Source of the DNA: Aegicerativicinus sediminis
Lineage (GTDB): Bacteria > Bacteroidota > Bacteroidia > Flavobacteriales > Flavobacteriaceae
Reading direction: 5' to 3'
Assembly: GCF_015476115.1 (NCBI RefSeq)
Contig: NZ_CP064295.1
Span: 552,001 to 616,000 of the forward strand
Length of the DNA stretch: 64,000 nt
Shown: positions 1,495 through 64,000 of the stretch, piece by piece
Numbering within the stretch: the stretch's first letter is position 1
Layout of the letters: every line of letters starts with the position of its first letter
Position numbers and translations under genes: made by a program
The notes under the pieces: model-generated
The model's database searches: none
The model's input: the letters and a program-made list of their open reading frames with translations, nothing else
What the model was told of the DNA's origin: nothing

Positions 1495-2721
1495 TTATGA
1501 AGAAATCTTAAATCCTATACTTTCTAGATCCTTCCAATAGTCTGGATAGGATTTATTCACAACCTCCGCATCATTGATTTGAAGAGGGATTTTGATACCC
1601 AGAGGAGCAAATGCCATTGCCATTCTGTGATCATTATAGGTATCGATTTCAACATCTTCCTTTAGATGATAAATTGCTTCAAGTTTTAGACTATCCTTAT
1701 TACACTTAATAGTTCCGCCTAATTTTTCAATTTCTATCCTCAAGGCCTCTAATCGGTCCGTTTCCTTTATTTTTAAGGTATGTAGACCCGTGAGATAACA
1801 AGGTCGACCTAATCCCAAACAGGTAACTGCAATTGTTTGTGCAATATCGGGTGCGTTTCTAAGATCTAATTGAAGCGGAGAGGCATTTTCTACCTCCATC
1901 AATTTTTTCAAGATCATTTTGTTGTCCCGAAAAGAAGTTTCAACTCCAAACTTTTCGTAAATCTCAATTAAAATGGAATCCCCTTGAAGAGAATCTAATT
2001 TATAATGCTGTAAGCCTATTTCGGTACCTGGTTTACCTAGTGCCACAATACTATAAAAATAGGAAGCTGAAGACCAATCAGATTCAACAATAAAAGTAGC
2101 TGAGACTTTATTTTGAAAGGATTCAATAGTTATTACGTGATCAGAAAAATTACATTCTACACCAATGTCTTGCAATAACTTCTGGGTCATTTTTATGTAG
2201 GGAACTGATGTTATTTCACCTACCAATGTTATTTCAAGTCCATTTGGCAAACTAGGTGCAATAAGCATTAAAGCAGAGATATATTGACTACTTACATTAG
2301 CTTTCATAGAAACTTTGCTATTCGTCAATTCTTTACCTGATATTTTTAAAGGTGGACAACCCTCAGTCTTAAGATATGTTATTTCTGCTCCAAGGGAATT
2401 CAATGCATCTACAAGCACTGCGATCGGACGCTCTTGCATCCTTGAAGAACCAGTGAGAATAACATTTCGATTAGGGCGAGAGGCAAAATAAGCTGTTAGA
2501 AAACGCATTGCTGTACCAGCATGATGAATATCCACTACATCCCTGTTCCCAGATATTCCCTTACTCATCATTTCAGAATCCTCAGAATTCGAGATATTGT
2601 TGATCTGAAGCCCCGGAAATAGAGCTTGCAACAGTAATAACCTATTCGATTCGCTTTTTGAACCCGTAATTATTAGGCTCGAAGGGGAAATTATTTCGGA
2701 TGGACTGATCTTAACTTTCAT
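1495..2721 (-). CDS. aroA: 3-phosphoshikimate 1-carboxyvinyltransferase (EPSP synthase)
   Basis: 408 aa, in the size range of the family (about 410-430). It joins phosphoenolpyruvate to shikimate-3-phosphate in the sixth step of chorismate synthesis. Visible motifs: GSKSESNRLLLLQALF near residue 20 (substrate-binding Lys and Arg), a shortened GTAMRFLTAYFA segment near residue 68, the LKIKETDRLEAL segment and the YNDHRMAMAFA block near the C-terminus. It sits 43 nt downstream of the mazG-like gene, same strand. It is the only shikimate-branch gene in this string; the other aromatic genes form a separate operon at 4619-8529. Confidence 0.96.
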   Translation of the reverse strand: MKVKISPSEIISPSSLIITGSKSESNRLLLLQALFPGLQINNISNSEDSEMMSKGISGNRDVVDIHHAGTAMRFLTAYFASRPNRNVILTGSSRMQERPIAVLVDALNSLGAEITYLKTEGCPPLKISGKELTNSKVSMKANVSSQYISALMLIAPSLPNGLEITLVGEITSVPYIKMTQKLLQDIGVECNFSDHVITIESFQNKVSATFIVESDWSSASYFYSIVALGKPGTEIGLQHYKLDSLQGDSILIEIYEKFGVETSFRDNKMILKKLMEVENASPLQLDLRNAPDIAQTIAVTCLGLGRPCYLTGLHTLKIKETDRLEALRIEIEKLGGTIKCNKDSLKLEAIYHLKEDVEIDTYNDHRMAMAFAPLGIKIPLQINDAEVVNKSYPDYWKDLESIGFKISS

Positions 2722-2764
2722 AGGGACGCAATTTACCCAAAATAGAGAAAATCAACCCATCCGA

Positions 2765-3091
2765 TTATTTTAATTTTTCATTGTTATGGTGCCTATCGTG
2801 ATCCCTTTTGGTTTTATTATCCATTCTTCGATCGAAAGCAGCCTGCAAATCAACACCAGTTTGGTTAGCCAAGCATAACACAACAAACAATACATCTGCC
2901 AATTCTTCACCCAAGTCTTTACCTTTATCCGATTCTTTCTCGCTCTGCTCTCCATAACGTCGAGCAATAATACGCGCAACCTCACCGACTTCTTCGGTAA
3001 GTTGAGCCATATTGGTGAGCTCATTAAAGTATCTCACTCCATGATCCTTGATCCATTTATCAACAATAACCTGGGCGTTTGCAATATTCAT
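2765..3091 (-). CDS. MazG-type nucleotide pyrophosphohydrolase
   Basis: 108 aa, a single-domain member of the all-alpha NTP pyrophosphatase superfamily (MazG/dUTPase-like). It carries the metal-binding pattern of the family: LTEEVGEVARIIARR (EExxE) around residues 29-43 and GEELADVLFVVLCLAN (ExxxD) near residue 62. The length fits a MazG-like house-cleaning enzyme that hydrolyses non-canonical NTPs to NMP and PPi, but the substrate cannot be read from sequence. It lies 10 nt downstream of dtd and is probably co-transcribed with it; both would serve quality control of nucleotides and aminoacyl-tRNA. Confidence 0.88.
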   Translation of the reverse strand: MNIANAQVIVDKWIKDHGVRYFNELTNMAQLTEEVGEVARIIARRYGEQSEKESDKGKDLGEELADVLFVVLCLANQTGVDLQAAFDRRMDNKTKRDHDRHHNNEKLK

Positions 3092-3101
3092 TTCTTTTAA
3101 A

Positions 3102-3554
3102 TTAAATTTTATCCTTTGAATCTATAATTATGGTAACAGGTCCATCGTTTATGAGAAAAACCTGCATATCAGCTCCGAATTTACCAGTTTCAATATTTCC
3201 AGAGAATGAAGCTTTTAACTCATCTAAAAATTGATTGTATAAAGGAACCGCAATATCTGGTTTGGCAGCCTTAATATAACTCGGACGATGTCCTTTTTTT
3301 GTGCTCGCATGAAGGGTAAATTGACTTACCAATAGAATCTCCCCACCTATGTCGGTTACAGATCTATTCATAATACCATCCCCATCATTAAAGATGCGAA
3401 GGTTAACTATTTTATTGATAAGCCATTCTATATCTTCCTTACCATCGTCATCTACAATCCCTAATAAAACTACCAATCCAGGACCTATCTCCTTCGTTTC
3501 AATGCTATCGATGGTAATTTTTGCTTCAGTAACTCTTTGAATGACAACTTTCAT
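3102..3554 (-). CDS. dtd: D-aminoacyl-tRNA deacylase
   Basis: 150 aa, exactly the DTD1 family size. It removes D-amino acids (and Gly from mischarged tRNAs) and so protects translation. Diagnostic motifs are present: LLVSQFTLHAST around residues 75-86 (the SQF/T signature) and the LINDGPVTIII motif near the C-terminus (NxGPVT). The ATG overlaps the TGA stop of rsgA (ATGA), so translation is probably coupled. Confidence 0.97.
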   Translation of the reverse strand: MKVVIQRVTEAKITIDSIETKEIGPGLVVLLGIVDDDGKEDIEWLINKIVNLRIFNDGDGIMNRSVTDIGGEILLVSQFTLHASTKKGHRPSYIKAAKPDIAVPLYNQFLDELKASFSGNIETGKFGADMQVFLINDGPVTIIIDSKDKI

Positions 3555-4501
3555 TCGTTATCCCAAATATCAGTTCGGTAATTTTCTTCTTCACCATCAA
3601 GAATTTGAAGATAGCTCCTATAACGTGAAAATGCAATTTCATCCTTTTCCAGGGCCTCCTTTACTGCACATTTAGGTTCTTCAAGGTGCAAACAATTATT
3701 GAATTTACACTCAGATTTTAAAGCGAAAAATTCTGGAAAATAATCCCCAACTTCCTCCTTTTCCATATCTACAACCCCAAATCCTTTTATACCGGGAGTA
3801 TCTATAATTTGTGCCCCAAAACTTAAATCGAACATTTCAGCAAAGGTAGTCGTGTGCTGACCTTGCAGGTGTTGGGCTGAAATTTCCTGTGTTTTTAGTT
3901 CTAAACCTGGTTCAATTATATTTATTAATGTAGATTTTCCAACCCCAGAATGGCCAGCGAACAAACTCACCTTACCCATCATCATTTCCTTAATCTTATC
4001 CACATTTTTGCCTGTAATTGCCGAGACACCTATACATTCATAACCAATCTGCCTATAAATATGTGCTAAATATCGAACCTCGTCTAATTCTTCTTCGGTA
4101 TAAGCATCTATTTTGTTAAATACCAATATTGGCTTTATAGAATAGGCTTCTGCTGTTACCAAAAATCGATCAATAAAACTTGTGAAAGTAGGAGGGTTAC
4201 TCACGGTAATTAACAGGAAAACCTGATCTATATTCGCAGCAATAATATGTACCTGCTTAGAAAGATTCACCGATTTACGTATGATGTAATTTTCTCTATC
4301 GTGTATTGAAGTAATCACTCCCGTAGTTTCATCATTCAGAGTTTCCAATTCAAACTCAACAATATCACCTACCGAAACAGGATTGGTACTTTTAATGCCC
4401 TTCATGCGAAACTTACCCTTTATTCTGCATTGGTAAAATTCCTCCTCTGTGTTTTTAACGGTATACCAACTTCCTGTTGATTTGTAAACTCTGCCTGTCA
4501 T
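3551..4501 (-). CDS. rsgA: Ribosome small subunit-dependent GTPase A
   Basis: 316 aa. RsgA is a circularly permuted GTPase that checks late maturation of the 30S subunit. Order of motifs: an N-terminal OB-fold (about 1-65), VFNKID (G4), SAITG (G5), the P-loop GHSGVGKSTL, a switch region QHTTTF and DTPGIKGFG (G3). The C-terminal zinc site follows with the pattern C-x4-C-x-H-x5-C in CKFNNCLHLEEPKC. The G4-G5-G1-G3 order is diagnostic. It is first in the string rsgA-dtd-mazG-aroA-queA and overlaps dtd by 4 nt. Confidence 0.97.
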   Translation of the reverse strand: MTGRVYKSTGSWYTVKNTEEEFYQCRIKGKFRMKGIKSTNPVSVGDIVEFELETLNDETTGVITSIHDRENYIIRKSVNLSKQVHIIAANIDQVFLLITVSNPPTFTSFIDRFLVTAEAYSIKPILVFNKIDAYTEEELDEVRYLAHIYRQIGYECIGVSAITGKNVDKIKEMMMGKVSLFAGHSGVGKSTLINIIEPGLELKTQEISAQHLQGQHTTTFAEMFDLSFGAQIIDTPGIKGFGVVDMEKEEVGDYFPEFFALKSECKFNNCLHLEEPKCAVKEALEKDEIAFSRYRSYLQILDGEEENYRTDIWDNE

Positions 4502-4618: not shown

Positions 4619-5701
4619 TTATGCATTGATGATTTTTTCTTGGTGATTAATAGATTCCTGATGTATCGCTTTAAAAACTCTTAAAATAAATTCCTCACTT
4701 AAATTCTTTTCTTCTCCTTGAAGAATCATTTTGCCAAGAATTTCATTCCAACGTTTTGTTTGTAATACAGCAACATTATGCGATTTTTTCAAAGCCCCAA
4801 TGTCATCTGCTATTTTCATACGTTTACCCAGCATATCAATTAATTGATGGTCAATTACGTCAATTTGAGTTCTAAGGGTATTGATTTTGTTTTTAAATTC
4901 TGCTGCTTCACCTACCTCTTTCCTAATTCGAAGATCGCGCATAATTTCCACTAAAGTATCAGGGGTAATTTGTTGAGCGGCATCACTCCAGGCATTATCA
5001 GGATCGTAATGAGTTTCAACCATCAATCCATCATAATTTAGGTCCAAAGCTGTTTGACATAGATCGAAAATAATGTCTCTTCTTCCTGCTATATGCGATG
5101 GATCTAAGATTAATGGCAAATCAGGCATTTTATTTTGAAGATCAATGGCCAACTGCCATTCTGGATTGTTTCTATACCTCGTTTTCTCATAAGTTGAGAA
5201 ACCTCTATGTATAACCCCAACATTTTTAATATCTGCCGCATAAATTCTTTCAACAGCACCCAACCACAATGATAAATCTGGATTCACCGGGTTTTTTATC
5301 AATACAATTTTGTCGGTACCTTTTAAAGCATCAGCAATTTCCTGAACAATAAACGGACTTACAGTAGTTCTCGCACCAATCCATAAAATATCAACATCAT
5401 GCTCTAGGGCCAAATCAACATGGTTTGCATTTGCAACTTCTGTTGTTGTTAGCATACCAGTTTCTTGTTTTGCTTTTTGAAGCCACTTTAATCCTAAGGC
5501 GCCAACCCCCTCAAAATTTCCTGGTCGAGTTCTAGGTTTCCAAATGCCTGCTCTTAAAACAGAGGCATCGGTATCTTTCAATTGATGTGCAATCTTTAAA
5601 ACTTGATCTTCAGTCTCAGCACTGCAAGGTCCAGCAATTACTAATGGGTGATCTAACCCAAAATTGTCTAACCAAGACCTCATTTCTTTCTTGTTTTCCA
5701 T
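4619..5701 (-). CDS. Bifunctional 3-deoxy-7-phosphoheptulonate synthase / chorismate mutase
   Basis: 360 aa with two domains. Residues about 10-255 are a DAHP synthase of the KDO8P-synthase-like (type I-beta) group, with VIAGPCSAET at the N-terminus, RAGIWKPRTRPGNFEG, GARTT, LIKNP and ILDPSHIAGRR. Residues about 270-350 are an AroQ-type chorismate mutase (LRTQIDVIDHQLIDMLGKRMKIADDIGALKK). It catalyses the first step of the shikimate pathway and the chorismate-to-prephenate step. The fused mutase commonly acts as an allosteric sensor of prephenate in such fusions (family knowledge). It is the last gene of the pheA-aminotransferase-tyrA operon, 10 nt after tyrA, with a terminator directly behind. 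Confidence 0.95.
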   Translation of the reverse strand: MENKKEMRSWLDNFGLDHPLVIAGPCSAETEDQVLKIAHQLKDTDASVLRAGIWKPRTRPGNFEGVGALGLKWLQKAKQETGMLTTTEVANANHVDLALEHDVDILWIGARTTVSPFIVQEIADALKGTDKIVLIKNPVNPDLSLWLGAVERIYAADIKNVGVIHRGFSTYEKTRYRNNPEWQLAIDLQNKMPDLPLILDPSHIAGRRDIIFDLCQTALDLNYDGLMVETHYDPDNAWSDAAQQITPDTLVEIMRDLRIRKEVGEAAEFKNKINTLRTQIDVIDHQLIDMLGKRMKIADDIGALKKSHNVAVLQTKRWNEILGKMILQGEEKNLSEEFILRVFKAIHQESINHQEKIINA

Positions 5702-5711
5702 TTCTAAAGTA

Positions 5712-6563
5712 TTATGTAATTCCGTTTAATATATCTTTAATTCTATTAGTGTTTTTCATTTCAAGGTAGACATCCTCATATTTATCACTCTCCATTAAAT
5801 CCATAAAATGCTGTAAGTTTTTAATGTAAGCGTCCAAGGTTCCTATAATGTTTTCTCTATTTTGTTTGAAGATAGGAGTCCACATTTCTGGAGAACTTTT
5901 AGCCAACCTTACTGTACTTGCAAATCCACTGCCTGCCATATCGAAAATATCTTTTTCGTTTTTCTCTTCATCTATCACTGTTTTACCTAGCATAAAAGAA
6001 CTTATATGGGATAGATGGGAAACAAAGGCGATATGTTTATCATGAGGTGCTGGATGCATGTATCGTATTCGCATACCCATTTCATTGAACAATTTTAGGG
6101 CTCGCTCTTGTAATTTGAACGCGGTCTTTTCTACTTCACAAATAATATTGGTCTTGCCTTCAAATAAGGTTGGTATTGCAGCTCTTGGACCAGAAAATTC
6201 TGTACCTGCAATAGGATGGGCAGCCAAAAAATTACGCCTTTTCGGATGATCTTCAACAATTTTACAAATGTCATATTTAGTAGAGCCAACGTCAATTACC
6301 AAACCATCATCAGATACCGCGTCCAAGACTTTTGGCAACTCATTCACGGTTGCATCTACTGGAATTGCCACAACTACCAAATCAGCATCCTTAATGGCTT
6401 CATAAGAACCCGCTTCATCTACCAAATTAATCTCAACAGCCATTTGGGCATGATCGGGATTACTATCGATACCAATAATTTTGCAGTTAGGGTAAAGCTT
6501 CTTAATGCCTAAAGCAAAACTTCCGCCTATTAACCCCGTACCTATAATGCAAACATTTTTCAT
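5712..6563 (-). CDS. tyrA: Prephenate dehydrogenase
   Basis: 283 aa, the compact TyrA form without a fused chorismate mutase. It oxidises prephenate to 4-hydroxyphenylpyruvate. The N-terminal Rossmann motif is GTGLIGGSFALGIK, followed by DVGSTK, the AAHPIAGTEFSGP block with the catalytic His, and SHLSHISSFML. Its start overlaps the aminotransferase stop (ATGA). The chorismate mutase it depends on is supplied by the next gene. Confidence 0.95.
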   Translation of the reverse strand: MKNVCIIGTGLIGGSFALGIKKLYPNCKIIGIDSNPDHAQMAVEINLVDEAGSYEAIKDADLVVVAIPVDATVNELPKVLDAVSDDGLVIDVGSTKYDICKIVEDHPKRRNFLAAHPIAGTEFSGPRAAIPTLFEGKTNIICEVEKTAFKLQERALKLFNEMGMRIRYMHPAPHDKHIAFVSHLSHISSFMLGKTVIDEEKNEKDIFDMAGSGFASTVRLAKSSPEMWTPIFKQNRENIIGTLDAYIKNLQHFMDLMESDKYEDVYLEMKNTNRIKDILNGIT

Positions 6564-7705
6564 CTCAATCGTGCTAAAGCTTCTTCTAAATCTTCAGTTC
6601 CTCCACAAAGTGAAAACCTTATATACCCCTCCCCATTACTTCCAAAAATATGTCCAGGTGTAATGAAAATATTTTTCTCCTTCAATATGTTATCTATAAA
6701 AGAATCTGAATCGATTCCCTGTGGCAATTTTGCCCACACAAACAAGCCAACAGCATTTTTATCATATTTGCAATTAAGAGCATCTGCCATTTTCCAAACT
6801 AAGTTTCTTCGCTGTTCGTAAACACTATTTAAACTTACAAACCATAACTTGGAACTTTTCAAGGCTTCAACCGCTCCTTTTTGAATTCCATAAAACATAC
6901 CTGAATCCATATTGCTCTTCACCTTCAAAACATGACTTATATAATCGGCATTACCAGCAACCATACCAACACGCCAACCAGCCATATTAAAGGTTTTACT
7001 TATGGAATTCAATTCTAAACAAACCTCCTTTGCCCCAGGGTATTTTAGGATACTTCGAGGGTAATCATTTAAAATAAATGAATACGGATTGTCATTCACC
7101 ACCAAGATATTGTGACGTTTGGCGAAGGCAATTATGTCTTCAAAATTCTTGTTGGAGGCCACAGCCCCCGTTGGCATATGCGGGTAGTTAATCCACATAA
7201 GCTTTACCTTGCTCAAATCTGAATTTTCCAAATCCATCAAATTCGGCTGCCAATTATTTTCTTCAGTCAAATCATAAAACTTCGGAATTGCACCAACAAG
7301 ATTTGTAACAGAAGAATAGGTAGGGTACCCTGGATTGGGTATTAAAACCTCATCCCCAGGGTTAAGAAACGCAAGCGAAATATGCATAATCCCTTCCTTG
7401 CTTCCCATTAATGGTAAAATTTCAGTCTTTGGACTTAGGCCAACTTGGTAATGATCATTATAAAATTTTGCCATAGCCTCCCTTAACTCAGGAAGTCCAA
7501 TGTAACTTTGGTATTTGTTTGCTTCTGCTAATTGCAGAGATCCCACCAAACCATCCAATGCTTTTTGAGGCGGTTCAAGGTCCGGACTACCAATGCCTAA
7601 ATTAATGATAGGTTTACCTGCTTCTTTTAAAAGAGCAACTTCCTTAAGCTTCCGCGAAAAGTAATATTCCTGTACGGTCTGTAATCTGGTAGCAGGTTCT
7701 ATCAT
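6560..7705 (-). CDS. PLP-dependent class I/II aminotransferase, probably aromatic
   Basis: 381 aa, fold type I. The Schiff-base lysine is K237 in SISKTFNMAGWRVGM, and the NPGYPTY and VVNDNPYSF motifs are typical of the aspartate aminotransferase superfamily. It lies between pheA (overlapping by one base, TAATG) and tyrA (ATGA overlap). The likely role is therefore transamination of phenylpyruvate and 4-hydroxyphenylpyruvate to Phe and Tyr. Related family members also act on methionine, LL-diaminopimelate or aspartate, so substrate preference is inferred from position only. Confidence 0.88.
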   Translation of the reverse strand: MIEPATRLQTVQEYYFSRKLKEVALLKEAGKPIINLGIGSPDLEPPQKALDGLVGSLQLAEANKYQSYIGLPELREAMAKFYNDHYQVGLSPKTEILPLMGSKEGIMHISLAFLNPGDEVLIPNPGYPTYSSVTNLVGAIPKFYDLTEENNWQPNLMDLENSDLSKVKLMWINYPHMPTGAVASNKNFEDIIAFAKRHNILVVNDNPYSFILNDYPRSILKYPGAKEVCLELNSISKTFNMAGWRVGMVAGNADYISHVLKVKSNMDSGMFYGIQKGAVEALKSSKLWFVSLNSVYEQRRNLVWKMADALNCKYDKNAVGLFVWAKLPQGIDSDSFIDNILKEKNIFITPGHIFGSNGEGYIRFSLCGGTEDLEEALARLR

Positions 7706-8529
7706 TAGTGTGCGTTTTTATATTCTCCCAATACTTTAAAATCCTCAGCCATTATTTCCATAATGGAGCGTGCCTTGGAATAATCTTTATAATTATCAAA
7801 TGTAACATCCACAAAGAAGGCATATTTCCAAGGCGTTTCAATCTTGGGCATAGACTGTATTTTGGTTAAATTCAATCTGCAATCGCTCATTACGTTCAAA
7901 ATTGAGGCTAAACTTCCGCGTTTATGCTCCAAGGAAAACCTTAAGGAGGCCTTATTTATCTCTTCTTCAGGCAACACTGAATTGGCAGTTTTTACAATTA
8001 CAAATCTTGTTTCGTTATGGCTAATGGTTTGGATGCTTTCAGCCAATATCTTTAGACCAAACATCTCAGCTGCCAATTTGCTCGCAATGGCTGCTATTCC
8101 TTTTATTTGCCTTTCATTAATTCGATGTGCTACCTCAGCAGTGTCCTTATCTTCAACCAGTCTGATATGCGGATAGCTTTTAAAGAATTGCTTACATTGA
8201 AGAAGCGCCATAGGATGTGATACAACTTCCTTAATATCCTCAATAGATTGCCCTGGCAAAGCCATTAGGTGATGTTGTATATCTAGATAATGCTCACCTA
8301 TAATATGCAACTTATTCTGGTCTATTAAAGCATAATTTGGCAAAATGGAGCCGGCAATGGAATTTTCAATGGCCATAATAGCAGCATCGCAGTCTCTTGA
8401 AAGAATCTTACCTACAGTTTCGTCAAACGACAAACACTCAACAACTTCGACTTGTTGTCCAAAATAGGCCTCCGCCACTATGTGATGGAAGGAACCTTTT
8501 ACACCTTGTATGGATACCGATTTTATCAT
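7705..8529 (-). CDS. pheA: Prephenate dehydratase
   Basis: 274 aa: a prephenate dehydratase domain (about 1-180) with SIQGVKGSFHHIVAEAYFG, IENSIAGSI, HPMALLQC and the NETRFVIV motif (TRF), then a C-terminal ACT domain (about 195-274) with the phenylalanine-binding segment LRFSLEHKRGSLASIL. It converts prephenate to phenylpyruvate and is probably feedback-inhibited by Phe through the ACT domain. It is the first structural gene of the operon. Its ATG directly abuts the T-run of an attenuator hairpin, so expression is probably set by the leader peptide at 8586-8660. Confidence 0.95.
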   Translation of the reverse strand: MIKSVSIQGVKGSFHHIVAEAYFGQQVEVVECLSFDETVGKILSRDCDAAIMAIENSIAGSILPNYALIDQNKLHIIGEHYLDIQHHLMALPGQSIEDIKEVVSHPMALLQCKQFFKSYPHIRLVEDKDTAEVAHRINERQIKGIAAIASKLAAEMFGLKILAESIQTISHNETRFVIVKTANSVLPEEEINKASLRFSLEHKRGSLASILNVMSDCRLNLTKIQSMPKIETPWKYAFFVDVTFDNYKDYSKARSIMEIMAEDFKVLGEYKNAH

Positions 8530-8560
8530 AAAAAAAAGTCCCGATATTTCATCGAGACCT
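8530..8560 (-). terminator. Attenuator terminator hairpin at the pheA start
   Basis: On the minus strand, AGGTCTCGAT (8560-8551) pairs with ATCGGGACTT (8545-8536), a 10-bp stem with two G-U pairs and a 5-nt loop. Eight T follow, and the pheA ATG comes immediately after. The first arm is also perfectly complementary over 8 nt (8553-8560) to a segment inside the leader ORF (8597-8604). The terminator and that alternative pairing cannot coexist, as expected for an attenuator. Confidence 0.88.
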
Positions 8561-8585
8561 AATTATTCATTTATGCTTTTAAAAC

Positions 8586-8660
8586 TTAAACATATAAGGT
8601 CTCGTTCCTTTTACCAAAAAAGAAATAAAACCAGTAATATGTAAAGTTCTGTGTTGTCAT
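8586..8660 (-). CDS. Aromatic leader peptide of the pheA operon (24 aa)
   Basis: ATG at 8660, TAA at 8588-8586. The peptide is MTTQNFTYYWFYFFF followed by GKRNETLYV. Residues 8-15 are eight consecutive aromatics (YYWFYFFF), with a further F6 and Y23. It is followed by an attenuator terminator ending at the pheA start. The segment CGAGACCT (8604-8597, codons 19-22) is perfectly complementary to the first arm of that terminator. Model (inference): with plentiful charged tRNA-Phe/Tyr the ribosome reaches the stop codon, covers this segment and lets the terminator form. If it stalls on the aromatic codons, the segment is free to pair and the terminator is prevented. The ORF is too short for standard gene callers. 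Confidence 0.87.
   Translation of the reverse strand: MTTQNFTYYWFYFFFGKRNETLYV
8597..8604 (-). promoter_or_regulatory. Antiterminator segment in the pheA leader
   Basis: CGAGACCT on the minus strand, inside leader codons 19-22. It is the exact reverse complement of AGGTCTCG (8560-8553) in the terminator stem. This is the switch element of the proposed attenuator. Confidence 0.75.
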
Positions 8661-8701
8661 TTTTTCAATTCGCGGCTAAAGTAATTATTATTTCCATTTT
8701 A

Positions 8702-8709
8702 CAAAACTA
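8702..8709 (-). promoter_or_regulatory. Putative -7 promoter box of the pheA operon
   Basis: TAGTTTTG on the minus strand matches the Bacteroidota -7 consensus TAnnTTTG. It would place the transcript start near 8695, about 35 nt before the leader ATG. No clear -33 TTG element is visible at the usual distance, so this is a prediction. Confidence 0.5.
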
Positions 8710-8809: not shown

Positions 8810-9706
8810 ATGTCTATAAAGGTTGAACACCTAAGTAAGATTTATGGTAGCCAAAAGGCGCTTGATGACGTTACATTTGAAATTGATAAAGGTGAAATTG
8901 TTGGTTTCTTGGGGCCAAATGGCGCTGGAAAATCCACGATGATGAAAATTCTAACGACCTACTTAGAGCCAACTGAAGGACTCGCTTATGTAAATGACGT
9001 TAATGTTGAGACGGACCAGCGTAAGGTTCAAAAATCAATTGGATATTTACCGGAACACAACCCTTTACATTTAGATATGTATGTAAAGGAATATTTAGCC
9101 TTCAATGCAGATATTCATGGCGTTTCAAAGGACCGAATTTCTAAAGTTATTGAATTAACAGGGCTCACCCCTGAAAGTCACAAAAAAATAGGTCAATTAT
9201 CTAAAGGTTACCGTCAAAGAGTAGGCTTGGCTACTGCTCTGCTTCACGACCCTGACGTTTTAATATTAGATGAACCAACTACAGGCTTAGATCCCAATCA
9301 GCTAGTGGATATTCGAAATCTTATTAAATCTGTCGGTTCCAATAAAACAATTTTCCTCTCCACGCATATTATGCAGGAAGTGGAAGCGATGTGTAAACGT
9401 GTTATTATAATTAACAAAGGGAAAATTGTAGCCGACCAATCGCTGCAAGATTTAAAGGGCAGCCAGCAACAGATTATTGAGGTTGAATTTGATTATCGCG
9501 TTGAGGAAGAGTTAATTAGCGAAATTAAACATGTTGCCTCTGTACAAAACGTATATGACTTTGTGTATGACATCACTTTTTCTGTACAAAAAGATATGCG
9601 CCCTATAATATTTGATTTTGCTCATGATAACGGCCTAAGAATTCTTAAACTCAACCAGAAAAACAAAAATCTAGAAAGTCTTTTCCACGAATTAACGGCT
9701 AACTAA
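8810..9706 (+). CDS. gldA: Gliding-motility ABC transporter ATPase GldA
   Basis: 298 aa ABC ATPase. Motifs in order: Walker A GPNGAGKST near residue 37, Q-loop region YLPEHNPL near 78, the signature LSKGYRQRVGLA near 130, Walker B DVLILDEPTTGLDP near 150 and the H-switch STHIM. The C-terminal 80 residues are the short domain seen in GldA/DrrA-type exporters. In flavobacteria GldA works with the membrane proteins GldF and GldG, which are not in the window. It converges with the head-GIN gene, the 3' ends overlapping by 4 nt. A generic NatA-like ATPase is possible, but length and sequence fit GldA. Confidence 0.85.
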   Translation: MSIKVEHLSKIYGSQKALDDVTFEIDKGEIVGFLGPNGAGKSTMMKILTTYLEPTEGLAYVNDVNVETDQRKVQKSIGYLPEHNPLHLDMYVKEYLAFNADIHGVSKDRISKVIELTGLTPESHKKIGQLSKGYRQRVGLATALLHDPDVLILDEPTTGLDPNQLVDIRNLIKSVGSNKTIFLSTHIMQEVEAMCKRVIIINKGKIVADQSLQDLKGSQQQIIEVEFDYRVEEELISEIKHVASVQNVYDFVYDITFSVQKDMRPIIFDFAHDNGLRILKLNQKNKNLESLFHELTAN

Positions 9707-62551: not shown

Positions 62552-64000
62552 TTAAAATTCATCAGTAACACAGCCTTTTGAAGCTGAGCTTACCGAACGT
62601 GCATATTTGTATAGTACACCCCTTTTAAACTTTAATTCAGGGGCTTTCCACTTAGACTTTCTTTCTTGTAAAACAGAATTTTCAACTAAAACACTGATTT
62701 CATTTTTTTCAGCATCAATAACGATGGTATCCCCATTTTCAACCAATGCAATAGCTCCTCCATCCTGAGCTTCAGGTGTAATATGTCCCACCACAAATCC
62801 ATGGGTACCACCTGAAAAACGTCCATCAGTAATTAGGGCAACTTCTTTACCTAGACCCGCACCCATAATCGCTGCAGTAGGCTTTAACATTTCAGGCATC
62901 CCCGGACCACCTTTTGGACCTTCATACCGTATTACTACAACATCCCCTTTTTCGACCATCCCATTTTTTATTCCGTCATTGGCTTCAAATTCGCTATTAA
63001 AGACTTTGGCTTTCCCTTCAAATCGAAGCCCTTCTTTTCCAGTAATTTTTGCCACACTACCTTCTTCCGCAAGGTTACCATATAACATCCTTAAATGGCC
63101 TGTCGGTTTAATAGGATTATCAATACTTTTTATTACATCTTGGTCTTTGGGCAAATCATCCACATCTAGAAGATTTTCAGCAAGGGATTTTCCCGTAACA
63201 GTTAGACAATCTCCATGTAGCAACCCTTTTCTTAAAAGATATTTTAAAACCGCTGGAATTCCACCAATGGCATGAACATCTTCCATTAAATATTGACCAC
63301 TAGGCTTTAAATCTGCCAAAAATGGTGTGTTATCACTAATTTTCTGGAAATCTGCCAGCGTAAAATCGATATTTGCAGCTCTTGCAATAGCCAAAAAGTG
63401 AAGAACCGCATTTGTGGAACCTCCTAAAATTGTCACTAGGCGAATAGCATTTTCCAAAGACTTTCTGGTAATGATATCCGATGGTTTGATGTCTTTTTCT
63501 AAAAGCAACCTCATTGCCTCACCAGCACGAATGGATTCTTTTAACTTCTCCTTACCGGTAGCCGGATTAGAAGAATTGAAAGGCAATGACATCCCAAGGG
63601 CTTCAATAGCAGACGCCATTGTGTTTGCTGTGTACATTCCACCACAAGCCCCTGCTCCGGGACAAGCTTTTTCAACGATATGCTGAAACTCGATCTCAGT
63701 CATCGTTCCAGCAACTTTACTTCCCCAGGCTTCAAAAGCAGAAACTACATCCAGTTTTTTTCCATTATGGCAACCAGAATCTATGGTCCCACCATATACC
63801 AAGATTGAAGGTCTATTTAATCTTATCATAGCCATTAATGCTCCAGGCATATTTTTATCACAGCCAACGACCGTAACCAACCCATCATAGCTCATAGCCT
63901 GAACTACAGTTTCCATTGAATCCGCGATGATATCCCTGGAAGGCAATGAATATCTCATTCCTGGCGTTCCCATAGAAATACCATCGCTTACTCCAATGGT
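62552..64000 (-). CDS. ilvD: Dihydroxy-acid dehydratase, partial (N-terminus outside window)
   Basis: 482 codons are in the window, out of about 560; the frame is open to the right edge (it reads [23 protein letters not shown]). Fe-S ligands are visible in [13 protein letters not shown] and [19 protein letters not shown], together with the carbamylated-Lys region outside the window or near the edge and the C-terminal [20 protein letters not shown] block. It dehydrates the dihydroxy-acid precursors of Ile and Val. It is first of the visible ilvDBNCA operon; any leader or promoter lies beyond the window. Confidence 0.97.

Follow-up and report, generated by a model that had tools for sequence, protein, structure and literature searches.

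The closest described relative of the element treated here is the attenuator ahead of pheA in Escherichia coli (Phe_leader, Rfam RF01859), in which, likewise, alternative RNA pairings and a terminator stand before the gene, together with a short leader peptide carrying consecutive control codons; the trp leader attenuators (RF00513) are alike in mechanism. In Firmicutes, amino-acid genes are controlled by T-boxes or riboswitches. According to an extract of a 2010 paper, its authors knew of no leader-peptide system (ermC aside) demonstrated in bacteria other than Proteobacteria and Actinobacteria until they themselves found one in Firmicutes (PMC2965389).

Regarding Bacteroidota, the ribosomes of this phylum are reported to fail to recognise Shine-Dalgarno sequences (PMC9976891, extract), and the 5' UTRs of Bacteroides contain short ORFs reminiscent of leader peptides, with no amino-acid case appearing among them in the extracts of that study (PMC7366714). 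A 2021 study of Flavobacterium psychrophilum mentions clues of leader-peptide attenuation before amino-acid operons as well as a conserved structured 5' element upstream of pheA, which resembles the one described below in gene, family and general mechanism and is conserved in other genera; the extracts of this text give no pheA leader sequence, alternative pairings or covariation (PMC9723704). An earlier note on the DNA analysed here, made from the sequence alone, had known of no case in flavobacteria, which in the light of these extracts was too strong a statement (PMC9723704). Searches of an open-access library turned up no further description.

The pheA leader and its operon

The window, that is, the whole stretch of 64,000 nucleotides from Aegicerativicinus sediminis that was analysed (contig NZ_CP064295.1, positions 552,001 to 616,000), carries on its minus strand a pheA operon preceded by the features collected in Table 1.

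Table 1 Features of the pheA leader and operon in the window and, in the last line, of a phenylalanine-hydroxylase-family locus in another genome
Feature	Position	Strand	Basis
Possible -33 element of a Bacteroidota promoter, TTTG	8702..8705	-	18 nt upstream of -7-like box; sequence of window only
-7-like promoter box (TAnnTT[T/A]G type), TACTTTAG	8676..8683	-	box conserved in position among relatives
Leader peptide ORF, MTTQNFTYYWFYFFFGKRNETLYV, 24 codons	8586..8660	-	direct reading; equivalent in 99/101 same-family loci
Putative control codons YYWFYFFF	8616..8639	-	sequence; aromatic run kept in relatives
Segment 2, CGAGACCT, putative antiterminator arm within leader ORF	8597..8604	-	exact complement of 8553-8560; varies jointly with terminator arm across relatives
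Segment 3, 5' arm of terminator hairpin, AGGTCTCGAT	8551..8560	-	sequence, RNA fold, covariation
Segment 4, 3' arm of terminator hairpin, ATCGGGACTT	8536..8545	-	sequence, fold; two-sided changes at all 10 helix pairs
T8 tract, predicted intrinsic terminator	8530..8537	-	sequence; abuts pheA start codon
pheA, prephenate dehydratase, first operon gene	7705..8529	-	PF00800 E 8e-57; best NCBIfam prephenate dehydratase 199 bits, cut-off 219
Aminotransferase, class I/II	6560..7705	-	best model LL-diaminopimelate aminotransferase-like; 0 of 25 top models over cut-off
tyrA, prephenate dehydrogenase	5712..6563	-	NF006307, 378 bits, cut-off 295
DAHP synthase fused to chorismate mutase	4619..5701	-	both domains matched, below cut-offs
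rsgA, dtd, MazG-like gene, aroA (EPSP synthase)	1495..4501	-	gene order, profile matches
L374, PF00351 gene; leader L347	G043:C4:189761-190456; leader G043:C4:189602-189725		reached via covariance-model match E 0.002

The earlier note had described a 24-codon ORF with eight consecutive aromatic residues (YYWFYFFF), an 8-nt segment (8597-8604) exactly complementary to a terminator arm (8553-8560) and a 10-bp hairpin with eight T ending at the pheA ATG, and all three are found where it had placed them. The ORF, read directly at 8660-8586, runs ATG ACA ACA CAG AAC TTT ACA TAT TAC TGG TTT TAT TTC TTT TTT GGT AAA AGG AAC GAG ACC TTA TAT GTT TAA, its stop codon occupying 8588-8586. The complementarity between CGAGACCT (8604-8597) and AGGTCTCG (8560-8553), the latter being the first eight bases of the hairpin, is exact, and the hairpin itself, AGGTCTCGAT-GAAAT-ATCGGGACTT (8560-8536), has 10 pairs, two of them G-U, and shares two T with the T8 tract, which is followed by the pheA ATG at 8529-8527. 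As to the geometry, segment 2 does end 8 nt ahead of the stop codon, as had been noted, while it begins 11 nt past the aromatic run, which the note had given approximately as four codons. None of 2,620 dinucleotide-shuffled upstream regions reaches the aromatic score of this ORF (9 in 10 codons), and 200 mononucleotide-shuffled versions of the leader include none that matches the pairing of segment and arm; the fold of the leader RNA (z = -3.1) is equalled by one of 200 shuffles.

The upstream neighbour is the gliding gene gldA (TIGR03522), which starts at 8810 on the plus strand and is thus divergent. Gene order could be examined at 95 loci, 85 of them leader-bearing, and 74 of these 85 show pheA-aminotransferase-tyrA-DAHP synthase. 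In the window, the genes from rsgA to aroA further downstream may be co-transcribed with the pheA operon, as their spacing and strand suggest. Across the 101 leaders, 540 Phe, 355 Tyr and 70 Trp codons were counted, all three kinds being present together in 69. Since the operon also codes for the DAHP synthase-chorismate mutase, the leader most likely senses the supply of Phe, Tyr and Trp; the designation as a Phe/Tyr operon in the earlier note therefore holds for these two amino acids, though not for them alone, Trp most likely being read too. As a side observation, eight leader-bearing loci (L099, L102, L117, L123, L124, L126, L127, L130) have pheA and DAHP synthase with no aminotransferase or tyrA detected alongside, and Tyr codons are still present in their leaders.

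Putative promoter and translation start of the leader

In 85 of 101 sequences, the leader ATG is preceded at 18-34 nt by a box of the type TA..TT[TA]G, compared with 2.6 expected from shuffles; the exact form TAnnTTTG accounts for 16 and the commoner TAnnTTAG for 69 of the 101. In the window, the TTTG further upstream may be the -33 element of the Bacteroidota promoter consensus, and transcription of the leader would be expected to start at about 8668-8672. Because the promoter-like box is so near the ATG, the 5' UTR of the leader probably measures no more than 10-15 nt. A Shine-Dalgarno motif precedes the leader start in only one of the 101 sequences, and 72% of these leaders have an A at position -3, which an extract of a study on F. 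johnsoniae gives as a positive determinant of initiation (PMC6847099).

Distribution among pheA loci

A search for prephenate dehydratase (PF00800) was positive in 134 of 198 genomes, among them that of the window; three of these (G113, G142, G159) were left out, and the regions upstream of pheA were analysed in 130 others plus the window, i.e. 131. All counts exclude L001, a copy of the window, and the set of 101 sequences referred to throughout also excludes L010 and L108. Within 330 nt upstream of pheA, 103 of the 131 regions contain an ORF in which 7 or more of 10 codons are aromatic, as opposed to 23 of 2,620 shuffled ones. We judged one of the 103, L010, to be a chance ORF with a TTG start. 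A hairpin with a T tract follows the ORF in 101 of the 103 leaders, and L108, whose pheA start had been placed inside the hairpin, has a terminator, too. The distance from leader stop to hairpin is 20-26 nt in 77 of the 101 sequences and up to 43 nt in the rest.

Within the family of the window, 94 of 101 pheA loci pass this simple ORF test, and a covariance model (E 2e-11 to 0.005) located the element farther upstream or in an aromatic-poorer form in five more genomes (G014, G049, G065, G068, G081), so that it is present at 99 of the 101 loci. In the two others (G024, G036), which do have prephenate dehydratase, neither the ORF test nor the covariance model found it. The earlier note had proposed to look among pheA relatives in Flavobacteriaceae for a conserved short aromatic ORF and for both pairings; ORF and pairings are conserved there, and the arms covary (see below), which supports reading the element as an attenuator. 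A further 80 pheA loci, the best 80 of 210 (Psychroserpens, Gelidibacter, Tamlana, Formosa, Lacinutrix and others), overlap partly with the set of 131 and are not independent of it; 75 of them pass. Among the five that do not, L140, L154 and L155 have a leader scoring 6 in 10, L168 is cut by a contig end, and L141 is the fifth.

Outside the family, the test is passed by 8 of 30 loci from other families of the order, with weaker leaders of a similar kind in L044, L072 and L074, and no such leader at nine loci of one of these families (f5) and eight of another (f16). The class was sampled with 119 genomes, 33 of them with prephenate dehydratase; three of these 33 loci were left out, and 26 loci from outside the order were read by eye: 16 have an aromatic leader (score of at least 6) followed by a hairpin and a T-rich stretch, the T run being short in L223 and L226, while the remaining ten show no ORF scoring at least 6 within 650 nt.

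In ten genomes without prephenate dehydratase, nothing matched the covariance model with an E of 0.001 or lower, and in the window's own genome the pheA copy is the sole match below E 0.03. Two further matches (L344, L345) are aromatic leaders ahead of pheA. Outside pheA, the matches at E 0.0055 or better include L347 (G043, E 0.002), which pointed to a Tyr-only leader (see below), L349 and L350. The only match under E 0.001 in nine f5 genomes (G136, 8.7e-4) is not an aromatic leader. This one (L346) and L369 (G001, E 9.1e-4) were rejected, neither being, as far as examined, an aromatic leader ahead of an aromatic gene.

Covariation of terminator and antiterminator

In a MAFFT alignment of the 101 sequences, 94.7% of the cells of the terminator helix (3:4) are paired and all 10 pairs show two-sided changes, with none of 500 shuffles equalling the native alignment in any of five measures. 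A count of 8 or 9 T in 9 is reached by 92 of the 101 terminators, a figure to be read knowing that the terminator search itself demanded 6.

For the alternative pairing of segments 2 and 3, the same alignment gave 69.1% paired cells against a shuffled mean of 64.6% (0 of 500 as high), and no excess of pairs with two-sided changes over shuffles (219 of 500). Because the spacing differs between species, a test independent of the alignment is the stronger one here: the native 2:3 score averaged 17.1, compared with 13.7 (sd 0.23, maximum 14.5) when arms were reassigned to leaders at random 2,000 times, and fell to 12.5 with arms of another type. Arms of the types GTCTCG, GTCCCG, GTCCTG, ATCCCG, ACCGC and CCCGG scored highest, or nearly so, with leaders of their own type. 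Taken individually, 77 of the 101 segments reach p < 0.05 against shuffles and 24 do not. On the PheA protein tree, both sides of the most variable 2:3 pair change on one branch twice (0.55 expected), and as there are only two such branches, much of the 2:3 covariation is to be ascribed to shared descent within clades. The pairing detected comprises 5-10 bp, segment 2 being situated at the end of the ORF or just past it. The RNAalifold consensus contains the terminator only, and a conserved 1:2 pause hairpin was not found in it; the fold of the window RNA does include a hairpin over the ORF, which has no counterpart in this consensus of the relatives.

Leaders of other amino-acid genes

Matching leaders were observed ahead of further biosynthetic genes. 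We found hisG in 18 of 26 genomes, with a His leader at all 18 loci, and trpE in 24 of 26, where each of the 18 loci examined (L258-L275) has a Trp leader (no more than WW at two of these loci), followed by a hairpin that by eye is terminator-like, its T run being interrupted in L259 and L262. The genome of the window itself has a hisG leader with HHHH (L252, G000:C1 at about 3.65 Mb) and a trpE leader with WWW (L268, G000:C1 at about 2.59 Mb), the sequences being MINRLSHHHHFFGTCAQARW and MNKSVNTWWWCYRNFEA, respectively, and both with a terminator-like hairpin. Upstream of thrA in this genome (L400), no leader and terminator adjoining the gene were found.

Just beyond the window, the ilvD gene (L402, match starting at window position 63173 and running past 64000) is preceded by a reading frame with IISIIVVV and no clear start codon that ends in IISIIVVVASVGR, then by a GC-rich hairpin with T7, about 200 nt before ilvD. 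By its sequence, this is probably an attenuator for Ile/Val, perhaps with Leu. A terminator-like site together with an Ile/Val-rich ORF is clear at 7 of 17 ilvD loci at most (L289 and L300 not counted).

A leader with Tyr codons only, with a terminator, was found ahead of two of five short genes of the phenylalanine-hydroxylase family (PF00351; substrate assigned by inference) and ahead of none of the 25 long PF00351 genes examined. These leaders, MNNNCTYYYYYTDPNWN in L371 and MKNLNNTYYYYPILTRRIGQ in L374, come from genomes of two different families, and their Tyr runs, TYYYYYT and TYYYYP, respectively, directly precede the short phenylalanine 4-hydroxylase-family genes. A Tyr-specific attenuator ahead of such genes is possible; we know of no described case. 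A literature search for a Tyr-only attenuator found none.

Proposed mechanism and alternative explanations

Anatomy, conservation, covariation, the lack of the element where the pathway gene is lacking and the matching specificities elsewhere make up a body of comparative sequence evidence that strongly supports a classical leader-peptide attenuator, and very probably the element acts as a ribosome-mediated transcription attenuator of the pheA operon. For leader translation, termination in vivo and the response to starvation we infer the following course. The leader ORF would be translated while being transcribed, and if charged tRNA-Phe, -Tyr or -Trp were scarce, the ribosome would stall in YYWFYFFF, leaving segment 2 (8604-8597) free to pair with segment 3 (8560-8553) before segment 4 exists; with 2:3 formed, no terminator would arise and RNA polymerase would enter pheA-aminotransferase-tyrA-DAHP synthase. 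With plentiful aromatics, the ribosome would reach the stop codon and cover segment 2, the 3:4 hairpin with T8 would form, and transcription would end just ahead of the pheA ATG.

The dimensions of the leaders agree with this scheme. Assuming a ribosome footprint of -21 to +13, a ribosome standing at the stop codon would cover at least 75% of segment 2 in 98 of the 101 sequences, and segment 2 starts at least 9 nt past the last aromatic codon in 95. For RNA that stops at segment 3, 99 of 101 sequences have 2 paired with 3 in their fold of minimum energy. In the window, the 2:3 fold (-15.4 kcal/mol) beats the terminator alone (-11.5) and stays once segment 4 is added; with segment 4 included, 2:3 is retained in the minimum-energy fold of only 19 of the 101 sequences, the window among them. 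Judged from these folds, a stalled ribosome would block termination even at equilibrium in the window and 18 other sequences only. As 2:3 is lost at equilibrium in most relatives, antitermination there must rest on 2:3 forming first.

It is conceivable that the same anatomy acts mainly on the translation of pheA, 3:4 hiding its start region and 2:3 exposing it, with termination playing a minor part or none. Such control would be suited by the short distance of about 8 nt, filled by the T tract alone, between the hairpin of the window and the pheA ATG, and by the 27 of the 101 sequences whose T tract begins no more than 15 nt from pheA. In 45 of the 101, however, the T tract is more than 25 nt away from pheA, a distance at which interference of the hairpin with initiation is less likely, and the T content noted above (8 or 9 T in 9 at 92 of 101) is what terminators need, so that we regard control mainly at the level of translation as unlikely. 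Effects on termination and on translation can coexist, and since the terminator of the window abuts the start of pheA, its hairpin may block pheA translation as well.

The hairpin could, furthermore, be a constitutive or unrelated terminator, serving an antisense RNA, an sRNA or a transcript from upstream, with the aromatic ORF a by-product of T-richness. The region is T-rich indeed and gldA diverges upstream (from 8810, plus strand), but this gene is transcribed away from the hairpin. Moreover, the hairpin, the aromatic ORF and the RNA segment at the C-terminal end of this ORF form one conserved unit, of which the ten genomes without prephenate dehydratase yield no match at E 0.001, and the control codons follow the pathway, with His ahead of hisG, Trp ahead of trpE and Tyr ahead of two of five short phenylalanine-hydroxylase-type genes, which argues against an unrelated terminator and makes it very improbable. 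Control of the operon by a T-box or a metabolite-binding riboswitch might be considered, such elements governing amino-acid genes in Firmicutes; in the window region as in 19 relatives, though, every Rfam family stays below its gathering score, and RNAalifold shows no conserved fold beyond the terminator, and we give this explanation next to no credence.

Comparison with known systems

Leader-peptide attenuation as proposed here for pheA requires a ribosome close behind RNA polymerase, and the pheA element therefore makes transcription-translation coupling in Bacteroidota directly testable; if the reading is correct, close coupling would be a working regulatory principle in this phylum, and a Tyr-only attenuator would constitute a specificity for which no precedent is known to us. 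With the element, aromatic amino-acid synthesis in a widespread phylum gains a layer of regulation, in the form of an RNA element without a match at threshold in Rfam 15 (window region and 19 relatives). In a wider sense, we consider it rather probable that one leader reading all three aromatic amino acids controls both the entry into the chorismate pathway and the synthesis of Phe and Tyr in much of Bacteroidia, as one of a set of attenuators (Phe/Tyr/Trp, His, Trp, Ile/Val and Tyr alone) in which the pheA leaders begin on very short 5' UTRs and lack Shine-Dalgarno sequences.

The mechanism itself is textbook knowledge. What is new, as far as our searches go, are the explicit leader, the covarying alternative pairings, the reading of three amino acids, the occurrence across the class and the leaders with Tyr alone. 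When T-boxes, riboswitches and known Rfam leaders were tried on the window, the best score was that of the Phe leader RF01859, at 23.8 bits (E 0.13) with a gathering threshold of 55 not a usable match, whereas RF00513 gave 20.3 bits (gathering 41), the trpE gene of the window genome having its separate WWW leader (L268). In contrast to the Phe codons of the E. coli pheA leader, the flavobacterial control codons are mixed Phe, Tyr and Trp; the 2:3 pairing as detected has 5-10 bp and places segment 2 at the ORF's end or immediately downstream, the leaders lack a Shine-Dalgarno sequence (motif in 1 of 101), and pheA, tyrA and DAHP synthase would be under joint control. Aromatic leader control of the E. 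coli type appears to be widespread in Bacteroidota and to have hardly been described there.
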